Source of the DNA: a virus
Virus record (IMG/VR): IMGVR_UViG_3300048839_000064
Location: 1-26,098 of that record
Reading direction: 5' to 3' (one strand)
DNA length: 26,098 nt
Positions 1-26,098 of the stretch are shown piece by piece. Both the position numbers and the translations under genes were made by a program. A model generated the notes under the pieces. The model made no database searches, had not been told where the DNA came from, and saw nothing but the letters and a program-made list of their open reading frames with translations. Numbering within the stretch: position 1 is the first letter of the stretch; the number at the start of each line of letters is the position of its first letter.

Positions 1-418
1 TGTTGGGTGACTTGCCGCTATTCAGAATATCGTTGCTCGTCGCTTTGACATCGACAAATCCAGTTACTGATGATGAGTGTTTCCTTGTTCGTTTAAATTG
101 AAGAATAACATCCGCCATGTTAAGTCGTTCCCCTGATTCGACATTAACTAACTGGTATTCATTTTCACTGTCCTCAACAACGTCTGTGAACAGTTCTTGA
201 GCCCACGCTTCAACAAAAGGCCCAGCAATCTTATTCACATTCTCCATTGGGATTCCGTATCTAAGATTTGTGTTGATGATGATTTTGTTTCGGCCCACGT
301 CTAGAGCGGTTTTAACCATTTTTTCTATTGAAGTAACCACAAAACTGGAACACTCGGAATAGTCTTCCGATTCCACTGGTATCTTGAGGACAAGATTGAG
401 GTAATCACTATTCAGCAT
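1..418 (-). CDS. Restriction endonuclease-like PD-(D/E)XK protein (3' end cut by window edge)
   Basis: The minus strand is open from an ATG at 418 to the left edge, giving 139 residues with no stop. The protein contains ADVILQF (D103) and, 20 residues later, GFVDVKATS with D123-V-K125. This acid plus D-x-K arrangement fits the catalytic core of the PD-(D/E)XK nuclease fold used by many type II restriction enzymes. A conserved-looking block NKIAGPFVEAW (residues 62-72) lies before it. A GTG at 433 is an in-frame alternative start; I prefer the ATG because GGAG lies 9 bases upstream of it, while nothing similar precedes the GTG. It is the only minus-strand gene and is transcribed away from the virion genes. 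No methyltransferase partner is visible on this side. The fold call is inferred from motifs; target site and true length are unknown. Confidence 0.6.
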   Translation of the reverse strand, partial: MLNSDYLNLVLKIPVESEDYSECSSFVVTSIEKMVKTALDVGRNKIIINTNLRYGIPMENVNKIAGPFVEAWAQELFTDVVEDSENEYQLVNVESGERLNMADVILQFKRTRKHSSSVTGFVDVKATSNDILNSGKSPN

Positions 419-434
419 TTCTTGAGACTCCACT

Positions 435-448
435 GGATTTTAAAATCC
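435..448. promoter_or_regulatory. 14-bp perfect palindrome, possible operator
   Basis: GGATTTTAAAATCC is a perfect inverted repeat lying 17 bases upstream of the endonuclease-like ATG on the minus strand. Its core TTTAAAATC recurs at 516-524, within the proposed promoter of the divergent plus-strand gene. Two related sites in a 130-base divergent region fit binding of a dimeric repressor, but no regulator gene is visible in the window. AT-rich palindromes can also occur by chance. Confidence 0.4.
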
Positions 449-494
449 GATCCTACGCGATTGGAGGAGTCAGGCAATAGAACTCTTGTGCAGT

Positions 495-523
495 TTGCCG
501 TGATCAGAGAGGGAATTTAAAAT
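495..523 (+). promoter_or_regulatory. Candidate promoter of the membrane-protein/terminase operon
   Basis: TTGCCG (495-500) and TAAAAT (518-523) are separated by 17 bases. They lie 25 bases before the GTG start at 548, leaving room for a leader with an AGGAGA ribosome site at 535-540. The -35 matches consensus at 4 of 6 positions and the -10 at 5 of 6. It is the only reasonable promoter seen before the 548-3720 gene chain. Confidence 0.4.
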
Positions 524-547
524 CTAGGTTAATCAGGAGAGTGAATC

Positions 548-1090
548 GTGCCAACAGACGAATCAAGTTGGAGATTTTACATCATATCGAGTGTCATCAT
601 ATTGATAATCGGTGGATTGCTTGGGTTGGGCGTCAACCTCATCACTCCGAAAGTCAAAGAGACTGGAGAAGGTTGGTTTCAAAAGCGCCGCCTCAAGAAA
701 GAGAAATACAGAGCAAAGCTTGAGAGAGCATCCCACGATTTAGACACAGATCCCACAATAGTCTACTTATACTTTGTTGGTTTGGTATTACTTTTGGTGA
801 CAGGATTCGCGCTTTTGGGAATAGCCGCGATCATTATGGCCGTGATTTATCTATACTTTGAATCTGTTGTGCCTCCCGCTGATGGGTTTATAAGAATAAT
901 GCTAATCATCGCGGGTTTAGTTCTTCTAGCAGCGTTCGTAGTAGCTGGCTCTTACTTTGCTGTTCGCTGGATGGGGTTGGTTGCTTACGCTAAAGATTTG
1001 TATCTCGTACACTCAGACAGAAAAAGGGCAGAGAGGAAAGCAAGGAAAGAAGCGGAAGTTGAAAACGACCAAGAAGAAATGATAGACTAG
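548..1090 (+). CDS. Membrane protein with 3 or 4 transmembrane segments
   Basis: This 180-residue protein has hydrophobic segments at about 9-32, 71-104 (long enough to be one or two spans) and 114-138. The loop at 35-64 and the C-terminal tail at 158-180 are strongly charged, the tail being K/R- then E/D-rich. The start is GTG, supported by AGGAGA seven bases upstream; an overlapping ATG-start frame has no such support. It is the first gene of the plus-strand chain leading to the terminase, with only 4 bases before the next gene. No known family is recognised. Its place at the head of a packaging operon and its topology do not decide between a lysis, exclusion or virion-membrane role. Confidence 0.75.
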   Translation: MPTDESSWRFYIISSVIILIIGGLLGLGVNLITPKVKETGEGWFQKRRLKKEKYRAKLERASHDLDTDPTIVYLYFVGLVLLLVTGFALLGIAAIIMAVIYLYFESVVPPADGFIRIMLIIAGLVLLAAFVVAGSYFAVRWMGLVAYAKDLYLVHSDRKRAERKARKEAEVENDQEEMID

Positions 1091-1094
1091 CAAA

Positions 1095-1412
1095 ATGCTC
1101 ATGAAGTGTGTGGGGTGCAATTCCGAGCACGACCACCATAGTTGGAAGTTTAAGGACTACGAAGACCGGAAAGGTCAAATAAAAAGTGGATGGTTCTGTG
1201 GCAAACACTTCAAACCCTCAGTAAAAGAGTGGGTTCCCGATAGAATAAAGCAAGAAAGAAAAGCACACTTCAAGGATATAGTGCAGCCTTGGAGAGACAA
1301 CGAACCCTCAAGGGAATATATAGACACGTACCCAGAACAATCTAAGAAGATTTTTACTCCAAAGGAAAGAAAATCAGCCAAGAAAGTTTGGAGTGACATC
1401 GCACCAAAATGA
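1095..1412 (+). CDS. Small Cys/His zinc-binding-like protein upstream of terminase
   Basis: The 105-residue product has C5-x2-C8 and C35-x2-H38, which together could hold one zinc ion, followed by a basic, Trp-containing C-terminal half. A second ATG at 1101 would lose only two residues and is equally possible; neither has a clear ribosome site, so it may be translated by coupling with the preceding gene. Its stop overlaps the next start by four bases (ATGA). Small zinc-binding proteins are common beside phage terminase genes and may bind DNA or assist packaging. Function here is unknown. Confidence 0.7.
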   Translation: MLMKCVGCNSEHDHHSWKFKDYEDRKGQIKSGWFCGKHFKPSVKEWVPDRIKQERKAHFKDIVQPWRDNEPSREYIDTYPEQSKKIFTPKERKSAKKVWSDIAPK

Positions 1413-1681
1413 ACAATCAAATTATAGAGTTGCTTTTTAAAATCATTGACTCGGACATCTCTAAAGATGCCAAAGAGAAGATACTCTTGCACTATATGCT
1501 CCCCAAACCAAAAGAAGGCTATGAGTCTGAGATGGTCGCACCAATAGAAAAGATCGAAGATACGGGCAGAGTGGGAACTATCAAGCGACCTTCAAAGAAG
1601 GAGATCGATATGAGGAATAACCCAAAACTAAAGGAAGAATTTGAAGCAATGGCTGAAACACTAGAAAAACTGGAAGTATGA
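1409..1681 (+). CDS. Hypothetical charged small protein, terminase operon
   Basis: This 90-residue, charge-rich protein has a hydrophobic helix near the N-terminus (residues 4-13) and a predicted helical Glu/Lys-rich C-terminus. It overlaps its neighbours by ATGA at both ends (1409-1412 and 1678-1681), so it sits in a tightly coupled translational chain with the zinc-binding-like protein before it and the small terminase after it. No family is recognised. Confidence 0.65.
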   Translation: MNNQIIELLFKIIDSDISKDAKEKILLHYMLPKPKEGYESEMVAPIEKIEDTGRVGTIKRPSKKEIDMRNNPKLKEEFEAMAETLEKLEV

Positions 1682-2094
1682 GTAGACCGACTAAATACAA
1701 AGACACCTACCCAGATCAACTGTATGAACATATGAAGGGTGGTCTTAGTTTTGAATCATTTGGTGGAGTGATTGGTGTCTCTGAAGAAACTCTACACAAG
1801 TGGAAAAACCAAAAATCTAAGTATTTTCGTAAAGCGTTTTCTGAGTCCTATAAAAGGGGGAGAACCGCTTCCATGCTTCATTGGGAAGAATTAGGACACG
1901 ACATGGTACTCGCCGGACAAGGCAATGCAACGGCGTGGATATTCAACATGAAGAATAGATTTAACTGGAAGGACAAAAAGGATATCACCACCGACGACGA
2001 AAAAATAACTGGTCCAATACTTCTGGCACCCAAACGAAATGGAAGAATATTGGACACCCCACCCAAAACAACAGGAGGCTCTAAGGCGGAGTGA
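1678..2094 (+). CDS. terS: Terminase small subunit (DNA-recognition)
   Basis: The 138-residue protein has an N-terminal helix-turn-helix at about residues 24-43 (LSFESFGGVIGVSEETLHKW), the usual DNA-binding module of small terminases. A middle segment (residues 69-98) with an aromatic-rich stretch ending in FNWKDK follows, of the kind seen in terminase small subunits and related phage HTH proteins. It starts in a 4-base overlap with the upstream gene and overlaps the large terminase by 56 bases. In the family this subunit recognises the packaging site and feeds DNA to the ATPase. The assignment rests on HTH, size and position directly before the large subunit. Confidence 0.8.
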   Translation: MSRPTKYKDTYPDQLYEHMKGGLSFESFGGVIGVSEETLHKWKNQKSKYFRKAFSESYKRGRTASMLHWEELGHDMVLAGQGNATAWIFNMKNRFNWKDKKDITTDDEKITGPILLAPKRNGRILDTPPKTTGGSKAE

Positions 2095-3442
2095 GTTTGA
2101 AATACTTTATGGAGGAGCACGAGGCGGAGGCAAGACCGACGCGGGTATAGTTTGGCTCAGTTATGATATTGCTAATCCTAGATTAAGAGCCTTAGTTATT
2201 AGACGCAATGCAGATGATTTATCCGACTGGGTAGATAGAGCCAGAAGGATGTATGCGAGGTTTGGTGCCGACTTCGCTTATAGACCAACAGAGATCAAAT
2301 TCCCCACAGGCGCAATCATAAAGACAGGACATCTCAAAGACGACAGTTCATACACCAAGTATCAGGGACACGAATACCAACGAATGGTTATTGAGGAGCT
2401 TAATCAGATACCCGAGGAGAAGCGATACCTTCAACTTATAAGCTCGTGCAGATCGACAGTAAAGAACTTGCCGCCTCAAGTCTTTTGCACAACTAATCCA
2501 GGCGGAGCAGGACACGGTTGGGTTAAGAGAAGATTTGTTGACGTTGGACCACCCAACATTCCATACACAGACCCCGATTCAGGACTCAATAGAATCTACA
2601 TACCAGCGACTATCGATGATAACCCAACACTCTTGGAGAACGATCCTAACTACCTAAAGATACTTGAGGGATTAAAAGAGACAGACGTTGAATTGTGGAA
2701 GGCGTGGAGATTGGGTAGTTGGGATACCTTCGCTGGACAGTTCTTTAGGGAGTTTAGACGCGATCTGCATACCTGTAAGCCGTTCACACCAAAGAGCGAG
2801 ATACCAAAGTACGCGGGTGTTGACTGGGGACGTATTGCACCCTTTGTATTCCTAGCTGGTGCGTTTGACGTGGTTAAGATGGAAGACGGCAGGGTGTTTC
2901 ACAGAGTGTGGATATATAAAGAAATCGACGGCACCGAGAAAAATCCAAAAGAGTGGGCTGATGAAATAAAAGAGAGAGTAAATATCGAGGAGTTCACTAG
3001 GATATCAGTTGATCCGGCGATGTTCACGAAAGGTCAAGACAACTCAATCTCAATAGCGGATCAATTTAAAAAAGAAGATATACGCATGAAACCCGCTAGT
3101 AACGACAGAGTCGGTGGATGGTCGGTGTTACACGACTGGTTATCAATAGCACCAGATGGTTTACCCTATCTTGTAATCACCGAGGATTGCCATGACCTTA
3201 TTACTACACTACCCGAGCTTGTACACGATGATAATAAAGTAGAAGATGTGGATACCACCGGTAACGATCACTGGGCTGACGCTTTAAGATACATGCTAAA
3301 ACACGTAAAATGGATAGATGCTAAAATTGGAGGGGTTAAGTCAAGTCCACCCGAGCCGAAAATCAAGAAGGGTCCACTCATGAATCTTGACTTGGAGAAG
3401 TTTGAAGGTAGATCAAAGAAACGTCGTTACAAAGAGGTATGA
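2039..3442 (+). CDS. terL: Terminase large subunit (ATPase and nuclease)
   Basis: The 467-residue packaging motor has all expected signatures. An N-terminal PHPKQQEAL (residues 7-15) resembles the Q-motif. Walker A is GGARGGGKT (25-33), Walker B is RMVIEEL with E119/E120 (115-121), and TTNPGGAGHGW (151-161) fits the coupling motif. The C-terminal RNase H-like nuclease has Asp residues in GVDWG (D262), SVDPAMF (D325) and DHWADALRYM (D410, D414). It powers DNA translocation into the prohead and cuts concatemers. The start lies inside the small-subunit gene, without a clear ribosome site, so translational coupling is likely. I kept this start because it preserves the N-terminal motif. Confidence 0.95.
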   Translation: MEEYWTPHPKQQEALRRSEFEILYGGARGGGKTDAGIVWLSYDIANPRLRALVIRRNADDLSDWVDRARRMYARFGADFAYRPTEIKFPTGAIIKTGHLKDDSSYTKYQGHEYQRMVIEELNQIPEEKRYLQLISSCRSTVKNLPPQVFCTTNPGGAGHGWVKRRFVDVGPPNIPYTDPDSGLNRIYIPATIDDNPTLLENDPNYLKILEGLKETDVELWKAWRLGSWDTFAGQFFREFRRDLHTCKPFTPKSEIPKYAGVDWGRIAPFVFLAGAFDVVKMEDGRVFHRVWIYKEIDGTEKNPKEWADEIKERVNIEEFTRISVDPAMFTKGQDNSISIADQFKKEDIRMKPASNDRVGGWSVLHDWLSIAPDGLPYLVITEDCHDLITTLPELVHDDNKVEDVDTTGNDHWADALRYMLKHVKWIDAKIGGVKSSPPEPKIKKGPLMNLDLEKFEGRSKKRRYKEV

Positions 3443-3720
3443 AGGTATCAATACTAAGTAGAGAAACAACAGAAATCAGAGTGGTTGACGTTGATGTGAC
3501 TTCGGTTGTATTGGTGGCAACTCCCGACAATAGACTGAAGATGTTCTTTTGCCCTAACTGTCAAAATCCTGTGGTGCAGTACAACGGTCAAGTGGTACAA
3601 ATACTCCCGGGTGCAGTTCCAACAGACATACCCATCTTAGTTCAGTGCTCTAACCGCAATTGCAGGACTAAATATTTATTTGAGAGAATTGCTGTAAGAG
3701 ATGATATAATGGGGATATGA
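3439..3720 (+). CDS. Small zinc-ribbon protein
   Basis: The 93-residue protein has a beta-rich N-terminal part followed by C38-x2-C41 and C70-x4-C75, a four-cysteine arrangement typical of zinc ribbons. It begins in an ATGA overlap with the large terminase. The -10 element of the portal promoter lies inside its last codons. Lying between terminase and portal, it could assist packaging, but no specific function can be claimed. Confidence 0.75.
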   Translation: MKVSILSRETTEIRVVDVDVTSVVLVATPDNRLKMFFCPNCQNPVVQYNGQVVQILPGAVPTDIPILVQCSNRNCRTKYLFERIAVRDDIMGI

Positions 3721-3756
3721 GCATTCTAGCCCTCCGAAAGGTGGGCTTTTCTATTT
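3703..3756 (+). promoter_or_regulatory. Promoter plus terminator-like hairpin leader, copy 1 (portal)
   Basis: The extended -10 is TGATATAAT, with TATAAT at 3705-3710. After a GAGCATTCT block comes a hairpin at 3728-3747: AGCCC, a T-T mismatch, then CC closing a GAAA tetraloop (3736-3739). A T-rich tract follows and the ATG is at 3757. The hairpin plus T-run looks like an intrinsic terminator but stands between promoter and start codon. No Shine-Dalgarno site lies between hairpin and ATG. Confidence 0.7.
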
Positions 3757-5877
3757 ATGGATAACGACAAAGACCAAATACAAATCCAAGATCCTTTAAG
3801 TCTGGATATTGATGATGAAAAATTCGCCACAATCATCCAAAAGCGCATTGATAACTCCAAGGAATGGTACAAGGAAAAGAAGTATGACGAACGTGTAGAG
3901 AAGAATGAGAAGTATTACTTCGGCAAACAAGTGGATATAGAAGAACTCAAGGGCTACGAAGGCAAGTGGTTAGATAACATCATCTGGGAATCGGAGAAAA
4001 GCATCAAGGCTATATCTCTCTCACGAATGCCAGACTTGATCGTTAAACAGGGTAACGAAGGGGATCAGAGCAAGAAATCAGCCGAGGATTTATCTAAGGT
4101 AGTTGATAGTGGCATTAAACGCCGAGAGATGAGGCAGGTATTGGCACTCGCCTTTAAACATGTTCCAGTCTACTACCAAGGTGTTATTAAATATCGATGG
4201 GACCCCGAGCTGGGCGAGGATGGAGACTACATATTCGAGGTAGTGCATCCCAAGAATATTGTGGTTGATCACACATCCCCAAGTAACGACCAAAAGGATA
4301 TGGACTTCGTAGCGCAGAAGCTGGAACTATCTATTAAAGAGTTGATTATGCGCTTCCCAGACAAGAAGAAGGAAATCATCGAAGCCGCCCAGAAAGATGG
4401 AATACAAGCCAACGACGATGGGGAGATACCAGAGGCTAAAATGGCAACCAAAGTGCACCCTTGGGAGATATGGTTCACTTGGTACAAAGAGACTGAAGGC
4501 GGGGAGTATGAAAGAGTTGAGGGTGTAGCGTGGAAGTATCACAAAAAGATTTTAAAGAAGATCAAGAATCCTAACTGGGACTGGGAAGGGCAGACGAGAA
4601 CATTCAATTATGATCAGGAAATGGGCGAGGATGATATAAGACAGACAATGCTTGGTGGAATGGAAGTGCCAGGGATGAAAACCGAGACCTTCTACAATAA
4701 CTATTTCGAGTCTCCAGAAAAACCCTTTATCTTTTTAAATTCTGAATTGTGGGGCAATTCACCACTAGACGAAACATCAAGAATAGAGCAGTTGATCCTC
4801 ATGCAGTACACCCTAGACGAAAGAGGAAAGATCATCGCCGAGAAACTGAAGAATCGAACTAAGCACATATTCTCCAAAGACGGCGGTTTGAAAGCTGATG
4901 ACATAGAGGAAATGGACATCAACGATCCCGACGAGGACTTACTTGTTGACGGGGATGTGGGCAAGGTTCACGGAATAATCGCACCAGATCTAGCCACTCC
5001 ACAAGAGTTCAAAGACTATGAAGACACAAGAAGTCGTATGTTCGCAAAAGCCGGCACGTTTGCAACCCGAGGAGAATTACAGTCTGACACTGCTACGTCA
5101 AACCAAATCGCACGAGAGGCTGATTTCACGCGAGCAGACGATCTTGTAGACGATACCATTAACTATGCGGCCGAGAAGATGTCCAGGGCGGTACTACAGA
5201 TGATCAAACTAAGGTACACCAATGACCATTATGTACGTATTCTTGGCGACGACGGCAATACGGTCTTTACAAGAGTCCACAGGGATATGGTAGAAGACGG
5301 CATGGAAGTTCAAGTAACCGCCTCGGGCACAGATAAGCTGAAAGCCGAACGACGCGCTATGGACATGGCTGGCATGAAACTCATTGACCCTCTCACTTTC
5401 TATAAGGATGTCGGAGCCAGTGACCCACATGGAAGAACCAAGAAGCTAATGACGTTTATGATGAGTCCAGAGCAATATATGGCAGAGTTTGTGATGGGAT
5501 TGAAGGACAGCGCGGCTATGGGTGAAGCTTTGAATGGTCAAACTGGCGGCCAACAGGCGTTGATGGACATCGCTCAAATGCAGCAAGGTCAGATGCCCCC
5601 AGTACCGGAGAATGTAGATGCTGAGTATCTGGACACACTAACCACCTTTATGCAATCACCCGAATTTATGGCGTTACCACCAGAGTTACAACAGGCGATT
5701 AGCAGTTTTGCCGAGCAAGTGCTAAATATCGTCAGTTCACAGACCCAAGAGCAACCACAACAACCATCACCGTCAGATCAGTTTGGCGGTTCAGCGGCTG
5801 GACCCAGCCCGATGGATACAACCAAAGTAGCAACCGAACCTCAGACATTAGCACCGGGTTCAACCAGACGGTTATAA
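3757..5877 (+). CDS. Portal protein (P22-type size)
   Basis: This 706-residue protein directly follows the terminase block and precedes scaffold and capsid, the standard portal position. Its length and its acidic, helical N-terminus (ERVEKNEKYYFGKQ near residues 47-60) resemble the large portals of P22-like podoviruses. The C-terminal part is Met/Gln/Pro-rich (about residues 590-690) and may form the extended barrel or a disordered tail. In the family, twelve copies form the ring through which DNA enters and leaves and to which the tail attaches. No sequence motif proves it; the call rests on length, order and overall character. Translation begins directly after hairpin leader copy 1. Confidence 0.85.
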   Translation: MDNDKDQIQIQDPLSLDIDDEKFATIIQKRIDNSKEWYKEKKYDERVEKNEKYYFGKQVDIEELKGYEGKWLDNIIWESEKSIKAISLSRMPDLIVKQGNEGDQSKKSAEDLSKVVDSGIKRREMRQVLALAFKHVPVYYQGVIKYRWDPELGEDGDYIFEVVHPKNIVVDHTSPSNDQKDMDFVAQKLELSIKELIMRFPDKKKEIIEAAQKDGIQANDDGEIPEAKMATKVHPWEIWFTWYKETEGGEYERVEGVAWKYHKKILKKIKNPNWDWEGQTRTFNYDQEMGEDDIRQTMLGGMEVPGMKTETFYNNYFESPEKPFIFLNSELWGNSPLDETSRIEQLILMQYTLDERGKIIAEKLKNRTKHIFSKDGGLKADDIEEMDINDPDEDLLVDGDVGKVHGIIAPDLATPQEFKDYEDTRSRMFAKAGTFATRGELQSDTATSNQIAREADFTRADDLVDDTINYAAEKMSRAVLQMIKLRYTNDHYVRILGDDGNTVFTRVHRDMVEDGMEVQVTASGTDKLKAERRAMDMAGMKLIDPLTFYKDVGASDPHGRTKKLMTFMMSPEQYMAEFVMGLKDSAAMGEALNGQTGGQQALMDIAQMQQGQMPPVPENVDAEYLDTLTTFMQSPEFMALPPELQQAISSFAEQVLNIVSSQTQEQPQQPSPSDQFGGSAAGPSPMDTTKVATEPQTLAPGSTRRL

Positions 5878-5901
5878 GAATTAGACCTCGGCAAAAGGTT
5901 G

Positions 5902-5917
5902 TGATATACTTTACATA
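5902..5917 (+). promoter_or_regulatory. Extended -10 promoter giving a leaderless-type mRNA (scaffold)
   Basis: TGATATACT (-10 hexamer 5905-5910) lies only seven bases before the ATG at 5918. With normal start-site spacing, transcription would begin at or within a base or two of the ATG. No ribosome site is present. The bases around it (GTTGTGATATA) match the other -10 elements in the window. Confidence 0.55.
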
Positions 5918-6694
5918 ATGGCAACCGACGAGCCAAAGAGCATTACTCAGGAAACTACCGAAACTAAAGATCAGGTAGTGGATGAGACTTCACAAGAGAC
6001 CCCAAAACAAACAGCCGAAGATCAAACAACAGGAACAAAAGAGGTAAAGGAAGAGACCTCAGAGGTTGATGTGGAGAAGATCACAGAGACCGCTACCAAA
6101 AGAGCCGAAGAGCGTGTGGCTCAACGATTACTCGACGCACTGGGCGTTACTAAAGAGGAGAAAACTCAGGCTGAAGGGGAAGGATTGATACCGCCTTGGG
6201 AGAAGGAAGGCAGAAACCCCAAGAGTTATAAGGAAGTGGCTGAGTTTTCAGCACAGCTCGCGGAATGGAAGCTTGAACAGACCCAAAAGGCGAAGGAAGA
6301 AGAGGAAGAGCAAGCCAAAGAGCAACAGAAACAGACTAATGAACAATGGAATAAGTATTGGGACGATCAACTAGATGAGTTGGTTGCCTCTGGGAAATTG
6401 CCGAAGGTCGAAGACTCCAAAGACCCAAACGATCCTGGTGTAGTGGCGAGAAAGGTACTCTTCCAAAGCATGTTCGATATCTCCCAAGAGAGACTACAAC
6501 AGGGTAAACCGGCAGTAACTTCTTTAAAGGAGATATTTTACGAACACTACAAAGATCCCAACGCTCAACCAGCAGGTTACGATGCACCCATATCTCTGGG
6601 TAAGAGAGCTGTGTCAACAGGGGAGAAGGCTGATTACTCGTACAACGACATTCATGGATCAAGTTACTCAGAAATCATAGCCGGTAAGAAATAG
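5918..6694 (+). CDS. Capsid scaffolding protein
   Basis: The 258-residue protein lies between portal and major capsid protein. Residues 1-50 are Thr/Glu-rich and look disordered. Helical, coiled-coil-prone segments follow, including an acidic/Gln run at about 120-142 (KAKEEEEEQAKEQQKQ). The C-terminus contains conserved-looking aromatic residues and ends in IIAGKK. Acidic, helical composition and position are typical of scaffolds, which organise the coat protein during prohead assembly and then leave. No protease motif is seen, so maturation would need a protease elsewhere or none. Confidence 0.75.
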   Translation: MATDEPKSITQETTETKDQVVDETSQETPKQTAEDQTTGTKEVKEETSEVDVEKITETATKRAEERVAQRLLDALGVTKEEKTQAEGEGLIPPWEKEGRNPKSYKEVAEFSAQLAEWKLEQTQKAKEEEEEQAKEQQKQTNEQWNKYWDDQLDELVASGKLPKVEDSKDPNDPGVVARKVLFQSMFDISQERLQQGKPAVTSLKEIFYEHYKDPNAQPAGYDAPISLGKRAVSTGEKADYSYNDIHGSSYSEIIAGKK

Positions 6695-6709
6695 GCTCAG
6701 ATTGACCAC

Positions 6710-6795
6710 TTGACATAAAGATTTAGACTGTATTATAATTACAGCATACGAGAAATATACCTCGCCAAAAGCGGGGTTTTTTTATTGATTAAAAC
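6710..6795 (+). promoter_or_regulatory. Strong sigma70 promoter plus hairpin leader, copy 2 (major capsid)
   Basis: TTGACA (6710-6715) and TATAAT (6734-6739) are both perfect consensus, separated by 18 bases. This is the best promoter of the window, in front of the most abundantly needed protein. The hairpin at 6759-6777 has stem ACCTCGC/GCGGGGT with loop CAAAA and one T-G wobble. A run of seven T (6777-6783) follows, and ATG comes at 6796. The leader lacks a Shine-Dalgarno site between hairpin and ATG. Confidence 0.8.
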
Positions 6796-7881
6796 ATGGC
6801 AGTAGACGGAATCACAAATTCAAACAGAGTAGATGCAACAACAGAGCGAAAACTCTACGCTAAGGTTGTTGACGGTGTAGGAAACTCCAGATCATACTTC
6901 GCTAGAGCAATGGGTAAGGCAAAACCGTTCGTTGGTAAATCCATGGACGTGAGCATCAAATACCAAAATTCTAACACCTTTGAATGGTTCACTGGTCTTG
7001 AAGCACTAAATTCGGCAGCTTCGGATAATACAATCACACTTTCCTTTAGACATGCAGCGGGAACTCAACCAGTCGTTTCTATCATGGTTGAATCTTTTGC
7101 TAATCAAGGTGAAGCAGGAACGATTGATCTCGACGACTACAAATATGAAGAAGCGGTCATGGAAGCAGTACAAGCAGTCGGAACCAAAACATTCTCAGGA
7201 CTTGGTGCCGCTAACGACATTCTCGGACTAGAAGCAATAGTCGACGACGGATCGAACGTAGGAACAATCGGAGGAAAACTTCGATCTTCTTATGACACAC
7301 TAGATGCAACGGTAACAGCCTCGAGCGGAACTTTGACCTTGGCAAAAATGGCAACACTTCATAGCGCAATATCAGCAGGTGGAGTTGTAGCTTCTGAACC
7401 AAATATCATGGTAACAACAAAGACTATCTGGGATTTGGTAGAGCAACTTTTGCACCCAACATTGAGGAATAACTATTCCACACTTCCAGTGAGAGGTGAC
7501 AACCTAGAAAAGGGTGACGGACTCAAGGGCATGGCTGGTTTCAGGGCCATCACATGGAGAGGTATCCCAATAATTCGAGATGACGCTTGTACTTCTGGAG
7601 TTCTCTACATGCTTAATGAAAAAACATTTGCATGGCACGGAAGAACATCTGTACCAGAGGCATACAGGGGTGAACTTGAAAAAGTTAGTCTCGGAACCGC
7701 TTCAGCAATGGAAGGTACTGGAATCGACACACTACCAAGTGAATGGAATGGTTGGTTCTACAAACCAATGCAGATGCTTCCTAACCAAGCAGGCATGGTT
7801 GCAAGATTATTCTTAATCGGGAACTTTGTACCAAAAGAGTTCAGAAGAAACGGTAAATTAACAGGAATAACAGGAGTGTAA
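6796..7881 (+). CDS. Major capsid protein
   Basis: The 361-residue protein follows the scaffold gene and has the strongest promoter in the window. Its size and alpha/beta character fit an HK97-fold coat protein, although this is inferred and not motif-based. Features seen are an N-terminal segment rich in small and charged residues, a central region at about residues 130-165 including GLGAANDILGLEAI, and a C-terminal block LPNQAGMVARLFLIGNFVPK (328-347) ending the protein. It would form the icosahedral shell around the portal. The next gene starts four bases after its stop, with AGGAG near 7872 serving as that gene's ribosome site. Confidence 0.85.
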   Translation: MAVDGITNSNRVDATTERKLYAKVVDGVGNSRSYFARAMGKAKPFVGKSMDVSIKYQNSNTFEWFTGLEALNSAASDNTITLSFRHAAGTQPVVSIMVESFANQGEAGTIDLDDYKYEEAVMEAVQAVGTKTFSGLGAANDILGLEAIVDDGSNVGTIGGKLRSSYDTLDATVTASSGTLTLAKMATLHSAISAGGVVASEPNIMVTTKTIWDLVEQLLHPTLRNNYSTLPVRGDNLEKGDGLKGMAGFRAITWRGIPIIRDDACTSGVLYMLNEKTFAWHGRTSVPEAYRGELEKVSLGTASAMEGTGIDTLPSEWNGWFYKPMQMLPNQAGMVARLFLIGNFVPKEFRRNGKLTGITGV

Positions 7882-9046: not shown

Positions 9047-9625
9047 ATGTCGTGGGACGATGCACAAAAGCATGAAAGTATCTTCTGGAATGATGCGCTT
9101 GGTGCCAACACCTTCACCGAAGAAAACAAGCAACTAAAGATTTACTCTCCAAGACTTAAACTTACAATCGACGCTTGGTCTAGTTTAGACTTTGAAAATA
9201 AGTCTGTCGTTGATGTTGGAGCGGGACCAGTATCCTTGCTTTTAAAAGGAAAAAATCTAAAGAAGGGCTACGCAATAGATCCGTTGATGGACAGTTTTCC
9301 TCAATGGGTAAGAGATAGATATAAGTTTGCGGGGATAGACTGTAGTGCGGCTAGGGGTGAAGAGTTTAAACAATCGGCTGACATGGCGATAATCTATAAC
9401 GTATTACAGCACGTAGTCGATCCCCAGAAGCTGATTGAAAACACCAAAGCCCAGGTTACAGAGATTAGGGTCTTTGAGTGGATCAGCGTGCCGGCAGACG
9501 AAAAACACCTCCACGTATTAACGGCGTCAAAATTAAACGAATGGTTTGGTACCAAGGGGATAGTGGAACATATCACAGAAGAAAACTCGTTCACTCAATG
9601 TTGGTATGCAACCATTAAAACATGA
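9047..9625 (+). CDS. SAM-dependent class I methyltransferase
   Basis: The 192-residue protein has motif I VVDVGAGP (residues 54-61) for S-adenosylmethionine binding, an acidic residue in YAIDP (D78) for the ribose, and IIYNVLQHVVDP (about 113-124), a motif like those of small-molecule and sugar methyltransferases of this class. No NPPY or DPPY DNA-amino-methyltransferase motif is seen. It overlaps the glycosyltransferase start by four bases (ATGA), so the two are coupled and probably act on the same substrate, such as a glycan. This is an inference from the neighbour. Substrate unknown. Confidence 0.8.
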   Translation: MSWDDAQKHESIFWNDALGANTFTEENKQLKIYSPRLKLTIDAWSSLDFENKSVVDVGAGPVSLLLKGKNLKKGYAIDPLMDSFPQWVRDRYKFAGIDCSAARGEEFKQSADMAIIYNVLQHVVDPQKLIENTKAQVTEIRVFEWISVPADEKHLHVLTASKLNEWFGTKGIVEHITEENSFTQCWYATIKT

Positions 9626-10668
9626 GGTTCCATGTAGTAAACCTACCACACACACAGGTTGCCAAAGGCAAGTGGAGTCAATGCGCTTATACCGCTAAAT
9701 GTAGAAAGTTTTGTAAGATGATGTCGGATCGTGGGCACGAGGTCATTTTGTATGCTTCAGACCTCAATGAAACCCCAGCCGAGCTTGTAACTTGTATCAC
9801 CACAGAGCAACAGGATTACTTCTTGGGGGAGTTTGATTGGTACAAAGAGGGTGCTATTTATAAGATGCCCTACGACAGAAAACTCCCCATCTGGAGGATA
9901 TTTAACGACAATGCCATCAAAGAGATAAAGAAGAGAGCTAGACCTGGTGACTTTGTGCTTTATCTGACAGGCAACACTCAGCAAGATATCCAAAAAGCAC
10001 TCCCCGAATTAAAGCACGTTGAGTATGGAATCGGTTATCCTGGCATATGGAACACTCCCTACAAGGTGTTCGAGAGTTACGCATGGATGCACTACCTCTA
10101 TGGCAGGTACACAATCCCCGATTATGAAAGACAAAACTATGCCGTAATTCCCAACTACTTCGAGATAGACGACTTTCCATTCAGCGAGGAGAAGGAAGAC
10201 TATCTACTTTTCATGGCTCGCCCCATACCCGCTAAGGGATTGGCTTCTGTTATGATCTTGGCAAGGGAAGAAAACATAAAGATCAAGGTTGCAGGTGCAG
10301 TTCCAGTTGAAGGAGAGAATATCGAATGGGTGGGTTATGCCGACGAAAAGGTGCGTGGGGAGCTGATGAAGAAGGCTAGGGCGTTACTATCTCCTACCCT
10401 CTATGTAGAACCATTTGGAGGAGTTGCCGTAGAAGCACAGATTTGCGGTACCCCCGTAATAGCTTCACGGTGGGGTGCTTTCACTGAGAATGTAGAGGAT
10501 GGTAAGACTGGCTTTCTGACAAGCGACTATTCCGAGATTAAAGAAGCAGTCAAGAAGATTGACACTCTCGACAAGAAATACATCCGAGACAGAGCCATAA
10601 GACTCTACAGTACCGAAAGTGTTGCCAAGCAATACGAGGATTACTTTAAAAGAATCAGTGTGGTATAA
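9622..10668 (+). CDS. GT-B type glycosyltransferase (GT4-like)
   Basis: The 348-residue protein has a Rossmann-like N-terminal half starting MRFHVVNLPHT and the C-terminal donor-binding half of a GT-B enzyme. LLFMARPIPAKGL (about 194-206) is the usual 'K-G' linker region. EPFGGVAVE holds E263 and E271, the E-x7-E motif of retaining GT4-like enzymes, followed by CGTPVIASRWGAFTENV. It would move an activated sugar onto an acceptor. Lying inside the structural block and coupled to a methyltransferase, it probably decorates virion proteins or alters the host surface. Its stop codon overlaps the -10 of the next unit. Confidence 0.85.
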   Translation: MRFHVVNLPHTQVAKGKWSQCAYTAKCRKFCKMMSDRGHEVILYASDLNETPAELVTCITTEQQDYFLGEFDWYKEGAIYKMPYDRKLPIWRIFNDNAIKEIKKRARPGDFVLYLTGNTQQDIQKALPELKHVEYGIGYPGIWNTPYKVFESYAWMHYLYGRYTIPDYERQNYAVIPNYFEIDDFPFSEEKEDYLLFMARPIPAKGLASVMILAREENIKIKVAGAVPVEGENIEWVGYADEKVRGELMKKARALLSPTLYVEPFGGVAVEAQICGTPVIASRWGAFTENVEDGKTGFLTSDYSEIKEAVKKIDTLDKKYIRDRAIRLYSTESVAKQYEDYFKRISVV

Positions 10669-12762: not shown

Positions 12763-15336
12763 ATGGCAAGGGCAAAACGAGACGACAATTTCATACCAGC
12801 TTTACTCGCCGAGAACGATTCATCTGGGTTAACGGAAGCTGTTTTAAAAGACAACTCTACTGGTGGTGTGTATGTCCATATAGTTGGTACTGAAGTGGGT
12901 GCCGCGGGTGGGACTTCGTCTGTGGATGATAGCGCATTCACAGCAGGTTCGGGTTCAGGTACTCCGATCATGGGGTTTGCCACTTCAGACGCAGTAAACG
13001 CAGGTGATGTTGGTGTTCTTGCAATGGATACTAACAGGAATCTAAAAGTGTCCATTGAAGCTGACAATGCAGGTATAGGAGGAGGGATACAGTATACCGA
13101 GGATGCCACAGATGCTTCTATCACAGGAACGGTGGCCATGATGGAGGTTGCCGCAGATGCTATCGAACCTTTACAGGGAACCGTAGCTGATGGGCTTTTG
13201 GTCAACCTCGGAACTAACAATGATATTACGGGAACTGTTACTGCAAATCTATCAGCCGTAGACAACGCAGTCTTAGATGATATTGCAGCCGATACCGAAG
13301 CCATAAAGACAGCAGTAGAGGGAACACTTACCGTAACTGGTGGTGGCGGTGGAGTCGAATACACCGAAGGGGACACGGATGCAACCATTACAGGCTCGGT
13401 TGCTTTAATGGAAGTAGCGGGCGATGCAATACAACCAATTCAAGGTACCGTAGCTGGAGGTCTACTTGTAAATCTTGGATCAAACAACGATGTCACAGTA
13501 ACTGGGACGGTTGATCTCGGCGCAACAGATAACGCAGTCTTAGACACTATAGACTCGGTTCTTGATACGATAAACGCAAAGCTTGTAACGGGAACCGATA
13601 TTGGGGATGTAACAATAAATAATTCCACAGGAGCAGCAGCAGTAAACATACAGGATGGCGGAAACACGATAACGGTTGATGGGACAGTGGCTGTTACTCA
13701 CGCCGCCCTTACGGAACTGGGTGCGGCCATAAACTCAGACAAAGTAGATGTAAACATCGTATCGAGCAGTGTGGCGACTGGTGGTACTTCGGCGGCTGAT
13801 GATGATGATTTTACTGCGGGTACGACCCCGGGGACTCCACTTATGGGAGCTTACGATGACAACGCAACGGCGGTTACTGATAATGATATGGGTATAGTGC
13901 GTATCACCTCAGATAGAAAAATGCACGTTACCGATGCTTCTTCTCAAGCTCTTTTGACAACAATAGATGCTGATACTTCGGCTATTGCAACAGACGTAGC
14001 CGCAATAGAAACACTTTTGACAACCATTGAAGGCAATCAGTTGGCAGATGGTCACAATGTTACGGTAGATAACGCCTCACTTACTGTAGATTTGGGAGCA
14101 AATAACGATGTTACACTAGCCACACTTCCCGACACAGCAGCGAGTGACTTGGCCACGATTAACTCGAATACTGATACTTTGGCGGTTGTTGGTGGGGGTA
14201 CAGAAGCGACAGCTTTGAGGGTAACTATCGCCAACAACTCGACTGGAGTAGTCTCGGTAGACGACAACGGAGGAGCATTAACTGTCGACGGCACAGTCGC
14301 AGTATCGAGTGTTGGAGGAACCGTCGCCGTTACACAATCGGGCACATGGAACGTAACGGATGTGTCTGGAACAGTATCACTTCCAACAGGAGCGTCAACA
14401 CTAGCCGAACAGCAAACCCAAACAACGGCACTTCAGCTAATTGATGACACCGTGTATGTCGATGATGCCGACTGGACAGATTCAACCTCAAAGCATTCTC
14501 TGGTTGGAGGTCTATACCAATCGACACCACAGACAGTTACCGATGGAGATGTAGCACCATTTAATATAACAGCTAACGGAGCACTCCATGTGTCGGATGG
14601 TGGCGGAGCGCTAACGGTAGATGGTACTGTGACCGCCAATGCGGGGACGAATCTTAATACTTCTGCACTCGCCTTAGAAGCCGGCGGTAACTTGGCGGCA
14701 GCAGCAACCTCTCTCGGAAACCTAGACAACTCGGTCGATGGTAACTACTTGAATGTGAATATGAATGTAGCCGGAACTGATGTTGTAAGCGGATCGGGTA
14801 CAGCAACAGGAGCTTTGAGAGTTGAACTCCCCACCAACGGAACTGGCGTGATCGCAACAGTGGGCGCGGTTACAGCTATCACTAACGCACTCCCCGCCGG
14901 CACAAACGCTATTGGTAAACTTGCAGCCAACTCTGGGGTAGATATTGGAGACGTAACCCTAACCGCAGGAACCGCCGCCATTGGCAGTTTGCTTCCATCC
15001 GATATTGATGTAACAGCACACACTAATTATGCACGTAAGTATTACACAAGTGCAGGAGCCGCCACAGACGGCATTATCTGGAGTCCCGCAGCGGGTAAGA
15101 GGTGGCACGTAGTAACGATGTATATAAACGTGTCTGCAGCAGCGACAATAACACTGGAAGATGATAAGTCGGGTGGAGATGATCCGGTCTGGAAAGGTGA
15201 AATCGCAGCCAACTCGGGAGTGGTTCTTAGTTTTACAGAAAGATACCCAATGGCGTCAGGCGAAGACGCAGCCGACCTAACCATAACTACCACGGCGGGA
15301 AATGTATATTGCACCGTGGTCGGCTATGAAGTATGA
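12763..15336 (+). CDS. Large repeat-rich virion fibre-like protein
   Basis: This 857-residue protein is low in Lys, Arg and Cys and rich in Thr, Val, Asp, Ala and Gly, as in extended beta-structured phage fibres. Residues 111-199 and 200-277 are two copies of a domain beginning YTE-x2-TDA-x-ITG and containing LLVNLG-x-NND. A second repeat type (F-T-A-G-x-GTP-x-MG, with a conserved DTNRNLKV/TSDRKMHV end) occurs near residues 59-100 and 350-390, with a related copy near 573-615. The middle has GTVAVTQSGTWNVTD-like beta strands. The C-terminal 115 or so residues form a separate domain. Probable surface or tail fibre; receptor contact is an inference. Confidence 0.7.
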   Translation: MARAKRDDNFIPALLAENDSSGLTEAVLKDNSTGGVYVHIVGTEVGAAGGTSSVDDSAFTAGSGSGTPIMGFATSDAVNAGDVGVLAMDTNRNLKVSIEADNAGIGGGIQYTEDATDASITGTVAMMEVAADAIEPLQGTVADGLLVNLGTNNDITGTVTANLSAVDNAVLDDIAADTEAIKTAVEGTLTVTGGGGGVEYTEGDTDATITGSVALMEVAGDAIQPIQGTVAGGLLVNLGSNNDVTVTGTVDLGATDNAVLDTIDSVLDTINAKLVTGTDIGDVTINNSTGAAAVNIQDGGNTITVDGTVAVTHAALTELGAAINSDKVDVNIVSSSVATGGTSAADDDDFTAGTTPGTPLMGAYDDNATAVTDNDMGIVRITSDRKMHVTDASSQALLTTIDADTSAIATDVAAIETLLTTIEGNQLADGHNVTVDNASLTVDLGANNDVTLATLPDTAASDLATINSNTDTLAVVGGGTEATALRVTIANNSTGVVSVDDNGGALTVDGTVAVSSVGGTVAVTQSGTWNVTDVSGTVSLPTGASTLAEQQTQTTALQLIDDTVYVDDADWTDSTSKHSLVGGLYQSTPQTVTDGDVAPFNITANGALHVSDGGGALTVDGTVTANAGTNLNTSALALEAGGNLAAAATSLGNLDNSVDGNYLNVNMNVAGTDVVSGSGTATGALRVELPTNGTGVIATVGAVTAITNALPAGTNAIGKLAANSGVDIGDVTLTAGTAAIGSLLPSDIDVTAHTNYARKYYTSAGAATDGIIWSPAAGKRWHVVTMYINVSAAATITLEDDKSGGDDPVWKGEIAANSGVVLSFTERYPMASGEDAADLTITTTAGNVYCTVVGYEV
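13093..13593 (+). repeat. Tandem internal domain repeat of the 857-residue protein
   Basis: Unit 1 (13093-13359) and unit 2 (13360-about 13593) encode similar proteins in the order YTE, ITG, MEVA, GTVA, LLVNLG, NND, DNAVLD. Synonymous codons differ at most positions, so selection has kept the protein repeat while the DNA diverged. Confidence 0.75.
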
Positions 15337-15340
15337 GGAT

Positions 15341-15375
15341 TTGACAGCGGGATATGAGATTTGTTATCATATCTT
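15341..15375 (+). promoter_or_regulatory. Promoter of the HNH gene, leaderless type
   Basis: A perfect -35 TTGACA (15341-15346) and TATCAT (15365-15370), with TG one base before it, are 18 bases apart. The ATG at 15376 comes five bases after the -10, so the message would start at about the start codon. A perfect -35 is unusual among the short-leader promoters here. Confidence 0.6.
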
Positions 15376-15870
15376 ATGTCAAGTAAAGTCCAGAGGTCTG
15401 AGAACTGGTACAAGGCTGTTAGTAAGCCCAGACCTCAACATGTGAAAGATGCGATCAGTAAGGCTCAGAGGGGAAGGAGGCATCAATTAAATGAGGGGTT
15501 TCAGAAGGGACATAAACCATTTTCTGAAAAGGGAAGATTTTACAAAGGTCAGCCATCTTGGAATAAGGGTACAGGCAAGGGCTCAGATCCCGTTAAATTG
15601 AAGTTACGAACTTATAGGGCGAACGCAAAGAAAAAGAATATGGTTTTTGAAGTAACACTAAAACAAATGGATGAGTTTCTTAAAAGTGAATGTATTTACT
15701 GTGGGGGTTCGGCAACAGGAATTGACAGAATAGACAACTCAAAAGGATATATTGATGGGAACATGCAACCGTGTTGTGGGGTTTGCAATCACATGAAGTG
15801 GAATCTGACACACGAACAATTTATTTCGAAATGTAAACAAATTGTCACTTGTGTAGGATATGAAATTTAA
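15376..15870 (+). CDS. HNH homing-type endonuclease
   Basis: The 164-residue protein has a basic N-terminus with Gly/Lys/Ser/Phe segments (residues 20-75, including GHKPFSEKGRF and QPSWNKG) resembling NUMOD3 DNA-binding repeats. An HNH-like zinc core follows: CIYCGG (about 106-111), GIDRIDNSKGY and PCCGVCNHMKW. This combination is typical of free-standing homing endonucleases in phage genomes. I chose the ATG at 15376; the upstream TTG at 15361 lies in the promoter. It separates two structural genes that otherwise would be adjacent and carries its own promoter, as expected of an inserted mobile gene. Confidence 0.85.
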   Translation: MSSKVQRSENWYKAVSKPRPQHVKDAISKAQRGRRHQLNEGFQKGHKPFSEKGRFYKGQPSWNKGTGKGSDPVKLKLRTYRANAKKKNMVFEVTLKQMDEFLKSECIYCGGSATGIDRIDNSKGYIDGNMQPCCGVCNHMKWNLTHEQFISKCKQIVTCVGYEI

Positions 15871-15878
15871 TTTGAATA

Positions 15879-17144
15879 GTGGCAAAGATACCAAACAGAG
15901 TTTCAAACACAATCTCGCAGAACTACGAAAAGCGGGATAACACTTTTATTCAGGAAAAGAAGTCGAACCCCAAGGACAGAATCGAAGTAGAAATCGGTGA
16001 CTCCAAAACTCCAGACAGTTTTTTACCTCAAGTAAAGGTGATGCGGTGGGACAACGAAGTTAACGCTTCATTCAGATATGTAGACACAGAGCTAGGCGAA
16101 GCTCAGATAAGGACTGAGGGCAAAGTAATCAAGTATGTCAAACCAAAGACCGAGTTTCGTGCTTACGACCTTGATCCCAAAGAGGGGTTGGAAGATGGCG
16201 GACTTGAGATAGAGCTACTCCTAAAAGAAAAACCCGACACAAACAAGTTCGAGTTCACGCTCCAAACCAAAGGACTGGACTTCTTCTACCAACCCGAACT
16301 TACACAAAAGGAAATAGACGAGGGCGGTTCAAGACCCGATGATGTGGCTGGTTCTTACGCTGTTTATCACAAGACTAAGGGTGGAATGAACCGAGCCGAT
16401 GGAATGGAATACAAGGCTGGTAAAGCCTTCCACATCTACAGACCATTCGCTTATGACGCTAACGGGGATGGTATTTACGCAGATTTGAATGTTGATGTAG
16501 AAGCGGGGATTCTAACCGTAACTGTAGATCAAAAGTTCTTGGACAATGCTGTCTACCCAGTGGTGGTTGATCCTACGTTTGGGTATACGACAAATGGGGG
16601 CTCAAGTGCAGGAATTGCAGGCAGAAACGATATGTTTGAAACTTGGACTGAATCAAGACTTGGTGATATTTATGCAGGAGCGGTTGGAACATTAGATAAA
16701 ATATCGGGTGTATTTAATTCTACTGCGAGTAGAGATATTAAAGTATTTTTGAATACAAAAGACAGTGGAGGTTCGGGAAATCACGGGCAGGTTGCTGTTG
16801 TCGAAGTGGCAAATACCACATTTGCCAAAGCCGCATTTACAGATTTTACTGCTGGTGGAGAATCAATAAGTGCAGTTGATTATATTTTAAATGCCGAAAC
16901 AAATTCATCAGAGATTGCCGATGGCGAGTCTATAACATTAGACTACGACACCGTAACTGCTAGGGCAGGTTATAGTGAAGCATATAGCTCTGGTTCTTTC
17001 AAATATGCTTCTCCAGAGAGCCCTTGGCTAGTTGCGTCTGGAAGCAAAACGCAAAAATTATCCATCTACGCCACCTATACAGCAGGATCAATTACAGTAA
17101 TCAAAGACTTCTTGGGGAGTGGATTTATACCGTTTGCGAGATGA
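15879..17144 (+). CDS. Two-part virion-like protein, unknown role
   Basis: The 421-residue protein starts at GTG eight bases after the HNH stop, with neither promoter nor ribosome site in front, unlike most unit heads nearby. Residues 1-232 are charged alpha/beta, with YRPFAYDANGDGIYAD and a closing VYPVVVDPTFGY. From there to the end it is Ser/Thr/Gly/Ala-rich and looks like a beta-sandwich domain. The DNA of the second half is clearly more AT-rich than the first, suggesting a swapped C-terminal domain. It may be a structural or fibre protein; no family is recognised. Confidence 0.6.
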   Translation: MAKIPNRVSNTISQNYEKRDNTFIQEKKSNPKDRIEVEIGDSKTPDSFLPQVKVMRWDNEVNASFRYVDTELGEAQIRTEGKVIKYVKPKTEFRAYDLDPKEGLEDGGLEIELLLKEKPDTNKFEFTLQTKGLDFFYQPELTQKEIDEGGSRPDDVAGSYAVYHKTKGGMNRADGMEYKAGKAFHIYRPFAYDANGDGIYADLNVDVEAGILTVTVDQKFLDNAVYPVVVDPTFGYTTNGGSSAGIAGRNDMFETWTESRLGDIYAGAVGTLDKISGVFNSTASRDIKVFLNTKDSGGSGNHGQVAVVEVANTTFAKAAFTDFTAGGESISAVDYILNAETNSSEIADGESITLDYDTVTARAGYSEAYSSGSFKYASPESPWLVASGSKTQKLSIYATYTAGSITVIKDFLGSGFIPFAR

Positions 17145-17243
17145 GGTAAATATGCGGAAATTATCAATTATCGGTAGGGGAGAGTGGGGGAGAGGCTAAT
17201 TCGTGCGTAGAGTGGGTGACATATTCAGTAGGGGATAGGGGTG
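17145..17243 (+). other. G/A-rich intergenic stretch before tail adaptor promoter
   Basis: No gene is seen here. The plus strand has several G-runs: 17177-17180, 17186-17190, 17214-17216, 17231-17234 and 17238-17241, embedded in purine-rich sequence with repeated TAGGGGA. It directly precedes the extended -10 at 17247 and is the longest non-coding gap of the window apart from the divergent region. It may act as an upstream promoter element or binding site. Confidence 0.4.
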
Positions 17244-25824: not shown

Positions 25825-26043
25825 ATGACCAATGAAGAAATTGAACAAAAGATTATTGAACTGGAGAGGGAGATTCGCGCAGCACGTAGGGCGTGGCGTA
25901 TTGATTACAACGAACTCACTGAAAGGCTTGACAATATGGGTATCAAAAACCTTACAGAGATTGCGAAAGGGTTATTCGCGCTCAAAGAGGAGGTCAACAC
26001 GCTAAAGAAAAAATATGACACAAACAAGGGGACAAAAAAATGA
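25825..26043 (+). CDS. Small coiled-coil protein
   Basis: The 72-residue protein starts at the ATG three bases after the fibre stop. An in-frame upstream start at 25708 was rejected, because it lies inside the fibre gene. It is charged, with coiled-coil heptads at about 3-35 and 45-65. Small coiled-coil proteins after fibre genes often precede lysis genes, but nothing here identifies the function. Confidence 0.6.
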   Translation: MTNEEIEQKIIELEREIRAARRAWRIDYNELTERLDNMGIKNLTEIAKGLFALKEEVNTLKKKYDTNKGTKK

Positions 26044-26059
26044 AATCAAACTCAATGTT

Positions 26060-26098
26060 ATGAGTGAACAAATCAAAAACATCCAGAGGGATATAGAG
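26060..26098 (+). CDS. Start of a further gene (cut by window edge)
   Basis: An ATG at 26060 opens a frame MSEQIKNIQRDIE that is still open at the end of the window. The fragment is helical and charged. GTTATG context shows no clear ribosome site. Too short to assign. Confidence 0.35.
   Translation, partial: MSEQIKNIQRDIE

Follow-up and report, generated by a model that had tools for sequence, protein, structure and literature searches.

Restriction-modification (R-M) systems are described as nearly absent from phages, 9 having been counted in 831 phage genomes, 7 of them type II, and as more frequent in prophages (Oliveira et al. 2014; PMC4176335). In marine biofilm viruses, too, R-M genes have been noted, type II among them (PMC10689801). 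In the hotspots of P2 and P4 a pair of conserved phage or satellite genes encloses anti-phage systems that vary; the P4 hotspot adjoins the cos packaging signal, and the type II system EcoO109I is included among those described (Rousset et al. 2022; PMC9122126). Complete phage-borne type II R-M pairs are already known, and the pair described here is a further one; of interest is the turnover of such pairs within one phage group. Among the literature matches listed, none described this group or a phage with an HpaI-type system.

The DNA analysed, referred to as the window, is an entire virus record (G000) of 26,098 b, the left edge of which cuts through a minus-strand gene, R. It is likely that R supplies the nuclease of a type II R-M system, complete and intact, in a tailed phage, and that the pair is an exchangeable defence cargo whose target is probably GTTAAC. 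The window phage resembles the phages and prophages surveyed by Oliveira et al. 2014 in carrying a complete type II system, the type to which most of theirs belong (PMC4176335). The survey found 9 systems in 831 genomes, however, whereas all four distinct phages (4/4) of the group studied here carry one (PMC4176335). Complete R-M systems are described as nearly absent from phages in that survey (PMC4176335); the one here is intact, with phage genes on both flanks. The varying occupancy between two conserved genes recalls the P2/P4 hotspots (PMC9122126), although the present group consists of different, uncultivated phages, its occupants are all type II R-M systems and the phages are too few to prove a hotspot. 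It is unusual that every one of the four phages in a group has a type II system, with three unrelated families among them.

The restriction gene and its methyltransferase partner

Within the window, R begins at ATG 418, preceded by GGAG, and residues 1–139 of 259 are encoded before the edge. With this 139-residue fragment alone there was no convincing match in Pfam, PHROGs, the PDB or phages, so the full gene was needed. It is provided by the contig IMGVR_UViG_3300048836_000308 (L002, L041; 9,942 b), which matches window positions 1–7644 exactly (7,644 b) and reaches 2,298 b further left. The features of the locus are as follows, positions being those of the window unless marked L041.

L041 248–1015, plus strand: metallopeptidase, 255 aa, SprT-like or M91-like (weak Pfam matches)
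L041 1952–1020, minus strand: M, N6/N4 DNA methyltransferase, 310 aa, wholly outside the window (nearest window position 1)
L041 2298–1937, minus strand: remainder of R (codons 140–259 and stop), outside the window
1–418, minus strand: 5' part of R (codons 1–139), type II restriction endonuclease by sequence; open frame to the edge, completed in the overlapping contig
419–547: intergenic, 129 b separating the divergent starts of R and of the rightward operon
548–1090, plus strand: predicted membrane protein of 180 aa, whose gene opens the rightward operon (weak matches to phrog_26862, E 7.5e-5, and to phrog_944, a membrane protein family, E 7e-4)
1678–2094, plus strand: probable terminase small subunit (PF13022, E 7e-4, and PF10668, E 0.048, below cut-offs; placed before the large subunit)
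2039–3442, plus strand: terminase large subunit (PF04466, E 6.6e-12; phrog_2, E 9.6e-42)

In the extended contig R is an unbroken frame of 259 codons (L041 2716–1937, minus strand), so that the whole gene is seen and no frameshift follows the edge. Full-length R matches the PADLOC profile PDLC03492 (REase_II) with E 2.4e-96 over profile positions 3–253 of 254, which answers the profile search against restriction enzyme families proposed by the first-pass annotation. No Pfam match and no convincing NCBIfam match was obtained for the full protein, and phmmer found none in the PDB. Judged by its sequence, R is an intact type II restriction enzyme of a known family.

M follows R in an order leading away from the packaging operon, and 16 nt at its start also belong to the end of R. 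The overlap suggests that translation of the two genes is probably coupled; GTGAGG, resembling a ribosome-binding site, precedes the start of M, as GGAG does that of R. M matches PF01555 (E 2.5e-68) and PADLOC PDLC03299 (MTase_II; E 2.8e-88). In M the motif DPPY precedes FCGSGTT, an order which we take to mark the beta class, and M is accordingly of the beta-class N6-adenine/N4-cytosine type. Both genes have a G+C content of 0.41, compared with 0.448 in the window, as for acquired genes. R and M, intact and adjoining, would thus form a type II R-M system, with cutting and marking of a shared site putative. The first-pass annotation had suggested that the truncated gene might belong to an R-M system, and the overlapping M gene bears this out. 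A vsr-like partner, which it had also mentioned, is not supported, since the adjoining gene encodes a DNA methyltransferase.

As had also been noted from the window, R diverges from the virion genes, 129 b separating its start from that of the 548–1090 gene. A control region common to R and the rightward operon is a positional suggestion only; promoter-like matches were weak, with 3 found against 0.6 expected in L041 2600–3000, the entire scanned stretch. The membrane protein is treated here as a neighbour of the R-M system.

Predicted fold, relatives and likely target of the pair

The cut-off gene had drawn attention through an Asp and a D-x-K spaced as in PD-(D/E)XK restriction enzymes. These residues, Asp103 and Asp123-x-Lys125, together with Glu70 and Glu94, are invariant in all 30 R proteins of an alignment (A2) comprising the phage R, 28 of 35 genome loci and one plasmid protein; the other seven loci (L017, L025, L032, L034, L036, L037 and L038) have broken, cut or partial R frames and were left out. 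D103, D123 and K125 are presumed to be the catalytic set by analogy with the HincII and EcoRV motifs. An AlphaFold2 model of R, built with 29 aligned sequences, has a mean pLDDT of 77.1 and a pTM of 0.74, with weak loops at 95–102, 115–118 and 131–135. In VIA-align comparisons SwaI ranked first (Z 16.5, 3.1 Å, 190 residues), with HincII at Z 13.3 (3.2 Å, 179 residues) and EcoRV at about 10. Foldseek likewise placed HincII chains at the top (best E 7.9e-6), but with low TM-scores (0.34–0.39) and large rmsd. R shares its predicted fold with these three solved PD-(D/E)XK type II enzymes, but at only 7–16% identity in the structural alignments, and sequence search misses them. The complete protein is thus predicted to have the PD-(D/E)XK core fold, in a form like that of HincII, EcoRV and SwaI. 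The full gene and the fold predicted for its product support the reading of the fragment as a PD-(D/E)XK restriction enzyme, as does the methyltransferase gene overlapping R.

Relatives of R were found at 35 genome loci, in several bacterial phyla and one Woesearchaeota MAG, with 59–73% identity to 28 of them. Together with the full-length profile match, these identities show that the restriction-enzyme features of the fragment are no accident. M lies directly downstream of R in 33 of the 35, the exceptions being L038, which runs off its contig, and L037, where R is truncated and followed by transposase-like frames; the M of L033 is only 44% identical to that of the window phage. Of 50,697 phage records none matched R, and of 72,556 plasmid records a single one did. 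In one set of 83 viral loci R occurred only in the extension contig, the other M matches being distant methyltransferases. In a tree of 31 R proteins the phage R stands alone on a long branch next to a clade of mixed bacteria, which does not allow a donor to be singled out. R frames are broken or truncated in L017, L025, L034, L036 and L037, and M still adjoins R in four of the five (not L037); in L017, L025, L034 and L036 the nuclease decays naturally whilst the methyltransferase stays. The same R-M family occurs in a 5,544-b viral contig of a different kind (L129 831–2539), with an R 60% identical to that of the window phage accompanied by its M, and holin-like and capsid-like frames were recognised there by eye.

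The target is probably GTTAAC, the site of HpaI (PMC6449724), though this is a best guess. HincII, a fold neighbour of R, cuts GTYRAC (PMC6449724), and BCAM0992 of Burkholderia cenocepacia is assigned GTWWAC (PMC7364216). The best solved matches of M are 8urk and 9c3u, labelled 'Methyltransferase' only; a search for a paper naming the 8urk structure found none. Both may be M.BceJIV, a GTWWAC enzyme. R.HpaI (GTTAAC) is a 254-aa enzyme of R's kind, accompanied by an N6-adenine methyltransferase; the PADLOC model is 254 positions long, and its label names no enzyme. By this description the pair is tentatively likened to the HpaI system of Haemophilus parainfluenzae, from which it differs in sitting in a phage. 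GTTAAC is the best guess in view of the fold kinship with HincII, the match of M to 8urk and the size and kind of HpaI, all of them indirect signs. A changed specificity is conceivable, since the branch of R is long and lone. The window holds 4 GTTAAC sites where 6.64 are expected, which is not a significant depletion and gives no clear sign of avoidance; GTWWAC occurs 23 times against 24.72 expected, making the avoidance test uninformative.

Phage flanks and sibling phages

To the right of R lie genes for the membrane protein, the probable small terminase, the large terminase, the portal and the capsid. On the far side the metallopeptidase gene is convergent with M, its stop four bases past the M stop. 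The peptidase gene and a small gene before it occur in the same order in four sibling viral contigs (G002, G003, G004 and G005), with an HNH gene between them in G004 and G005, and stand just ahead of structural or packaging genes. These siblings were found through the peptidase or the small gene, without use of the restriction genes. The window is tied to the same phage group by its identity to G002 and G005 at other points: positions 25825–26098, at its far end, show identities of 90.5% with G002 and 89.0% with G005, and positions 15011–17145 are 98.1% identical to G002. Two assembled contigs agree over the junction of the R-M and packaging genes. As far as assemblies can show, the pair is truly in a phage, with phage genes on both flanks.

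G004 and G005 are identical over 13,533 b and are therefore counted as one phage. The interval between their peptidase and terminase-like genes holds an Eco29kI-type enzyme on the minus strand (PF09517, E 9.1e-57) together with a methyltransferase. In G003 the peptidase and small genes are followed by a BstXI-type enzyme (PF09552, E 4.1e-91) with its methyltransferase, and then by structural genes rather than terminase. In G002 the junction is empty, the next gene following the peptidase after only 38 b, and a BstXI-type pair (PF09552, E 1.8e-85) lies elsewhere, just after a tail-region gene common to the window. Three of the four phages thus have their pair at or shortly after the peptidase and one elsewhere. 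Between peptidase and terminase the occupants differ in the window phage and G004/G005, G003 being partly alike; the genomes are few. We take the BstXI-type enzymes to have an HNH fold and the Eco29kI type a GIY-YIG fold. Since the junction holds unrelated type II systems or nothing in the siblings, the pair behaves as an exchangeable defence cargo at a module boundary. The boundary between the early genes and the packaging module is where mosaic exchange among phages is expected.

A search of three records with the tyrosine integrase profile PF00589 gave a match in G003 only, with none in G001, one of the two records of the window phage; G005 also has a tyrosine integrase. The resolvase profile PF00239 had no match in four records. 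G003 and G005 look temperate on account of their integrases. It is a real possibility, though short of a probable one, that in this phage lineage, at least partly temperate, type II R-M is a constant and interchangeable cargo, the slot after the early metallopeptidase and next to the packaging or structural genes being refilled with unrelated nuclease folds (PD-(D/E)XK, HNH, GIY-YIG) so that changing DNA specificities would face competing phages and hosts. Should the pattern hold in more genomes, it would offer a natural test of why phages carry R-M systems (cell defence, addiction or counter-restriction), because related phages differ in cargo, or have none, at the same junction. It would also point to one way in which R-M pairs pass between bacterial phyla.

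Several further observations concern these contigs. G003 and G005 start with a matching stretch (L122 1–159 and L132 1–159; tblastx 85–87% over 53 codons) beside the tyrosine integrase gene, which may be an attachment region or a shared end of the genomes. In G002 the large terminase gene (L121 5332–7214) appears split by an HNH_3 gene (6107–6568; PF13392, E 1.3e-9), as by an intron or intein-like element. A 60,313-b viral contig (G007; L138) has a BstXI-type R 60% identical to that of G003 and three N6/N4 methyltransferase matches. The block at 15011–17145 includes an endonuclease VII/HNH-like gene (15361–15870; phrog_1035, E 1.5e-15) and a 421-aa gene, and its surroundings have otherwise diverged between the window and G002; it looks like a recent transfer, perhaps nuclease-driven. 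The BstXI-type pair of G002 begins exactly where this block stops.

Role of the pair and competing explanations

The most likely role is ordinary restriction-modification, carried as exchangeable cargo protecting the infected or lysogenic cell. The pair is transcribed away from the packaging operon across the 129-b divergent region. M would mark phage and host DNA, and R would cut the unmarked incoming DNA of competing phages or plasmids, so that the phage could guard the cell it occupies as a lysogen or carrier. Loss of the pair might harm a cured cell, and M could in addition protect the phage in hosts whose enzymes recognise the same site. The genes, their intactness, families and order, the predicted fold, the phage flanks and the turnover among siblings are observed in this account; how active the pair is, what it targets, when it is expressed and what it gains are inferred. 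For the window phage, whose far-left part is unassembled, neither an integrase nor a repressor was identified, and protection of a lysogen is in its case conjectural.

Selection may instead have acted on M as a counter-defence, blocking a host enzyme of the same specificity, with R a passenger or a degrader of host DNA. Solitary methyltransferases are stated to be far commoner in phages than complete systems (PMC4176335), and ParB-methyltransferase-like genes stand before the large terminase in the terminase relatives L043, L045, L050 and L104. Yet R is intact with every catalytic residue kept, and what the siblings have at or near the peptidase junction is a complete R-M pair rather than a methyltransferase by itself, and we judge this explanation unlikely. 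An addiction role, in which the main effect of the pair is to maintain the phage or prophage because cells that lose it are killed (post-segregational killing), seems no likelier. Type II pairs on mobile elements are known to act in this way, as has been stated for prophages (PMC4176335), and tyrosine integrases are present in G003 and G005; the window phage, however, has no known integrase, and the frequent replacement of systems among the siblings neither favours nor excludes post-segregational killing. Ordinary restriction-modification by an exchangeable cargo is preferred to both.

That the R-M genes are bacterial chromosome beside an integrated prophage is very improbable. R and M are a common bacterial pair and R is absent from the phage records searched, but the peptidase and small gene on the far side are found again in front of structural or packaging genes in sibling viral contigs, and the two contigs agree over the junction. 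Free-standing homing-like or Vsr-type repair nucleases are many in phages, and the window has its endonuclease VII/HNH-like gene, but such an identity for R, the first of which the first-pass annotation had also offered, can be dismissed as exceedingly improbable given the full-length match to a type II restriction enzyme profile, the overlapping M gene, the recurrence of the pair in 33 of 35 genome loci and the absence of any match to homing-nuclease, HNH, GIY-YIG or Vsr profiles in Pfam and NCBIfam.

Elsewhere in the window, the virion region at 9047–10668 holds a class I methyltransferase-like gene (PF13489, E 5e-5) followed by a glycosyltransferase-like frame recognised by eye. Among the terminase relatives, the gene before the large terminase in L043 (462–1682) is a fusion of ParB-N and N6/N4 methyltransferase domains by Pfam, and the frames at this place in L045, L050 and L104 are similar by eye. 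GroEL-like frames, again identified by eye, lie near the packaging genes in L045 (3–1586), L050 (710–2413) and L052 (3913–5496).
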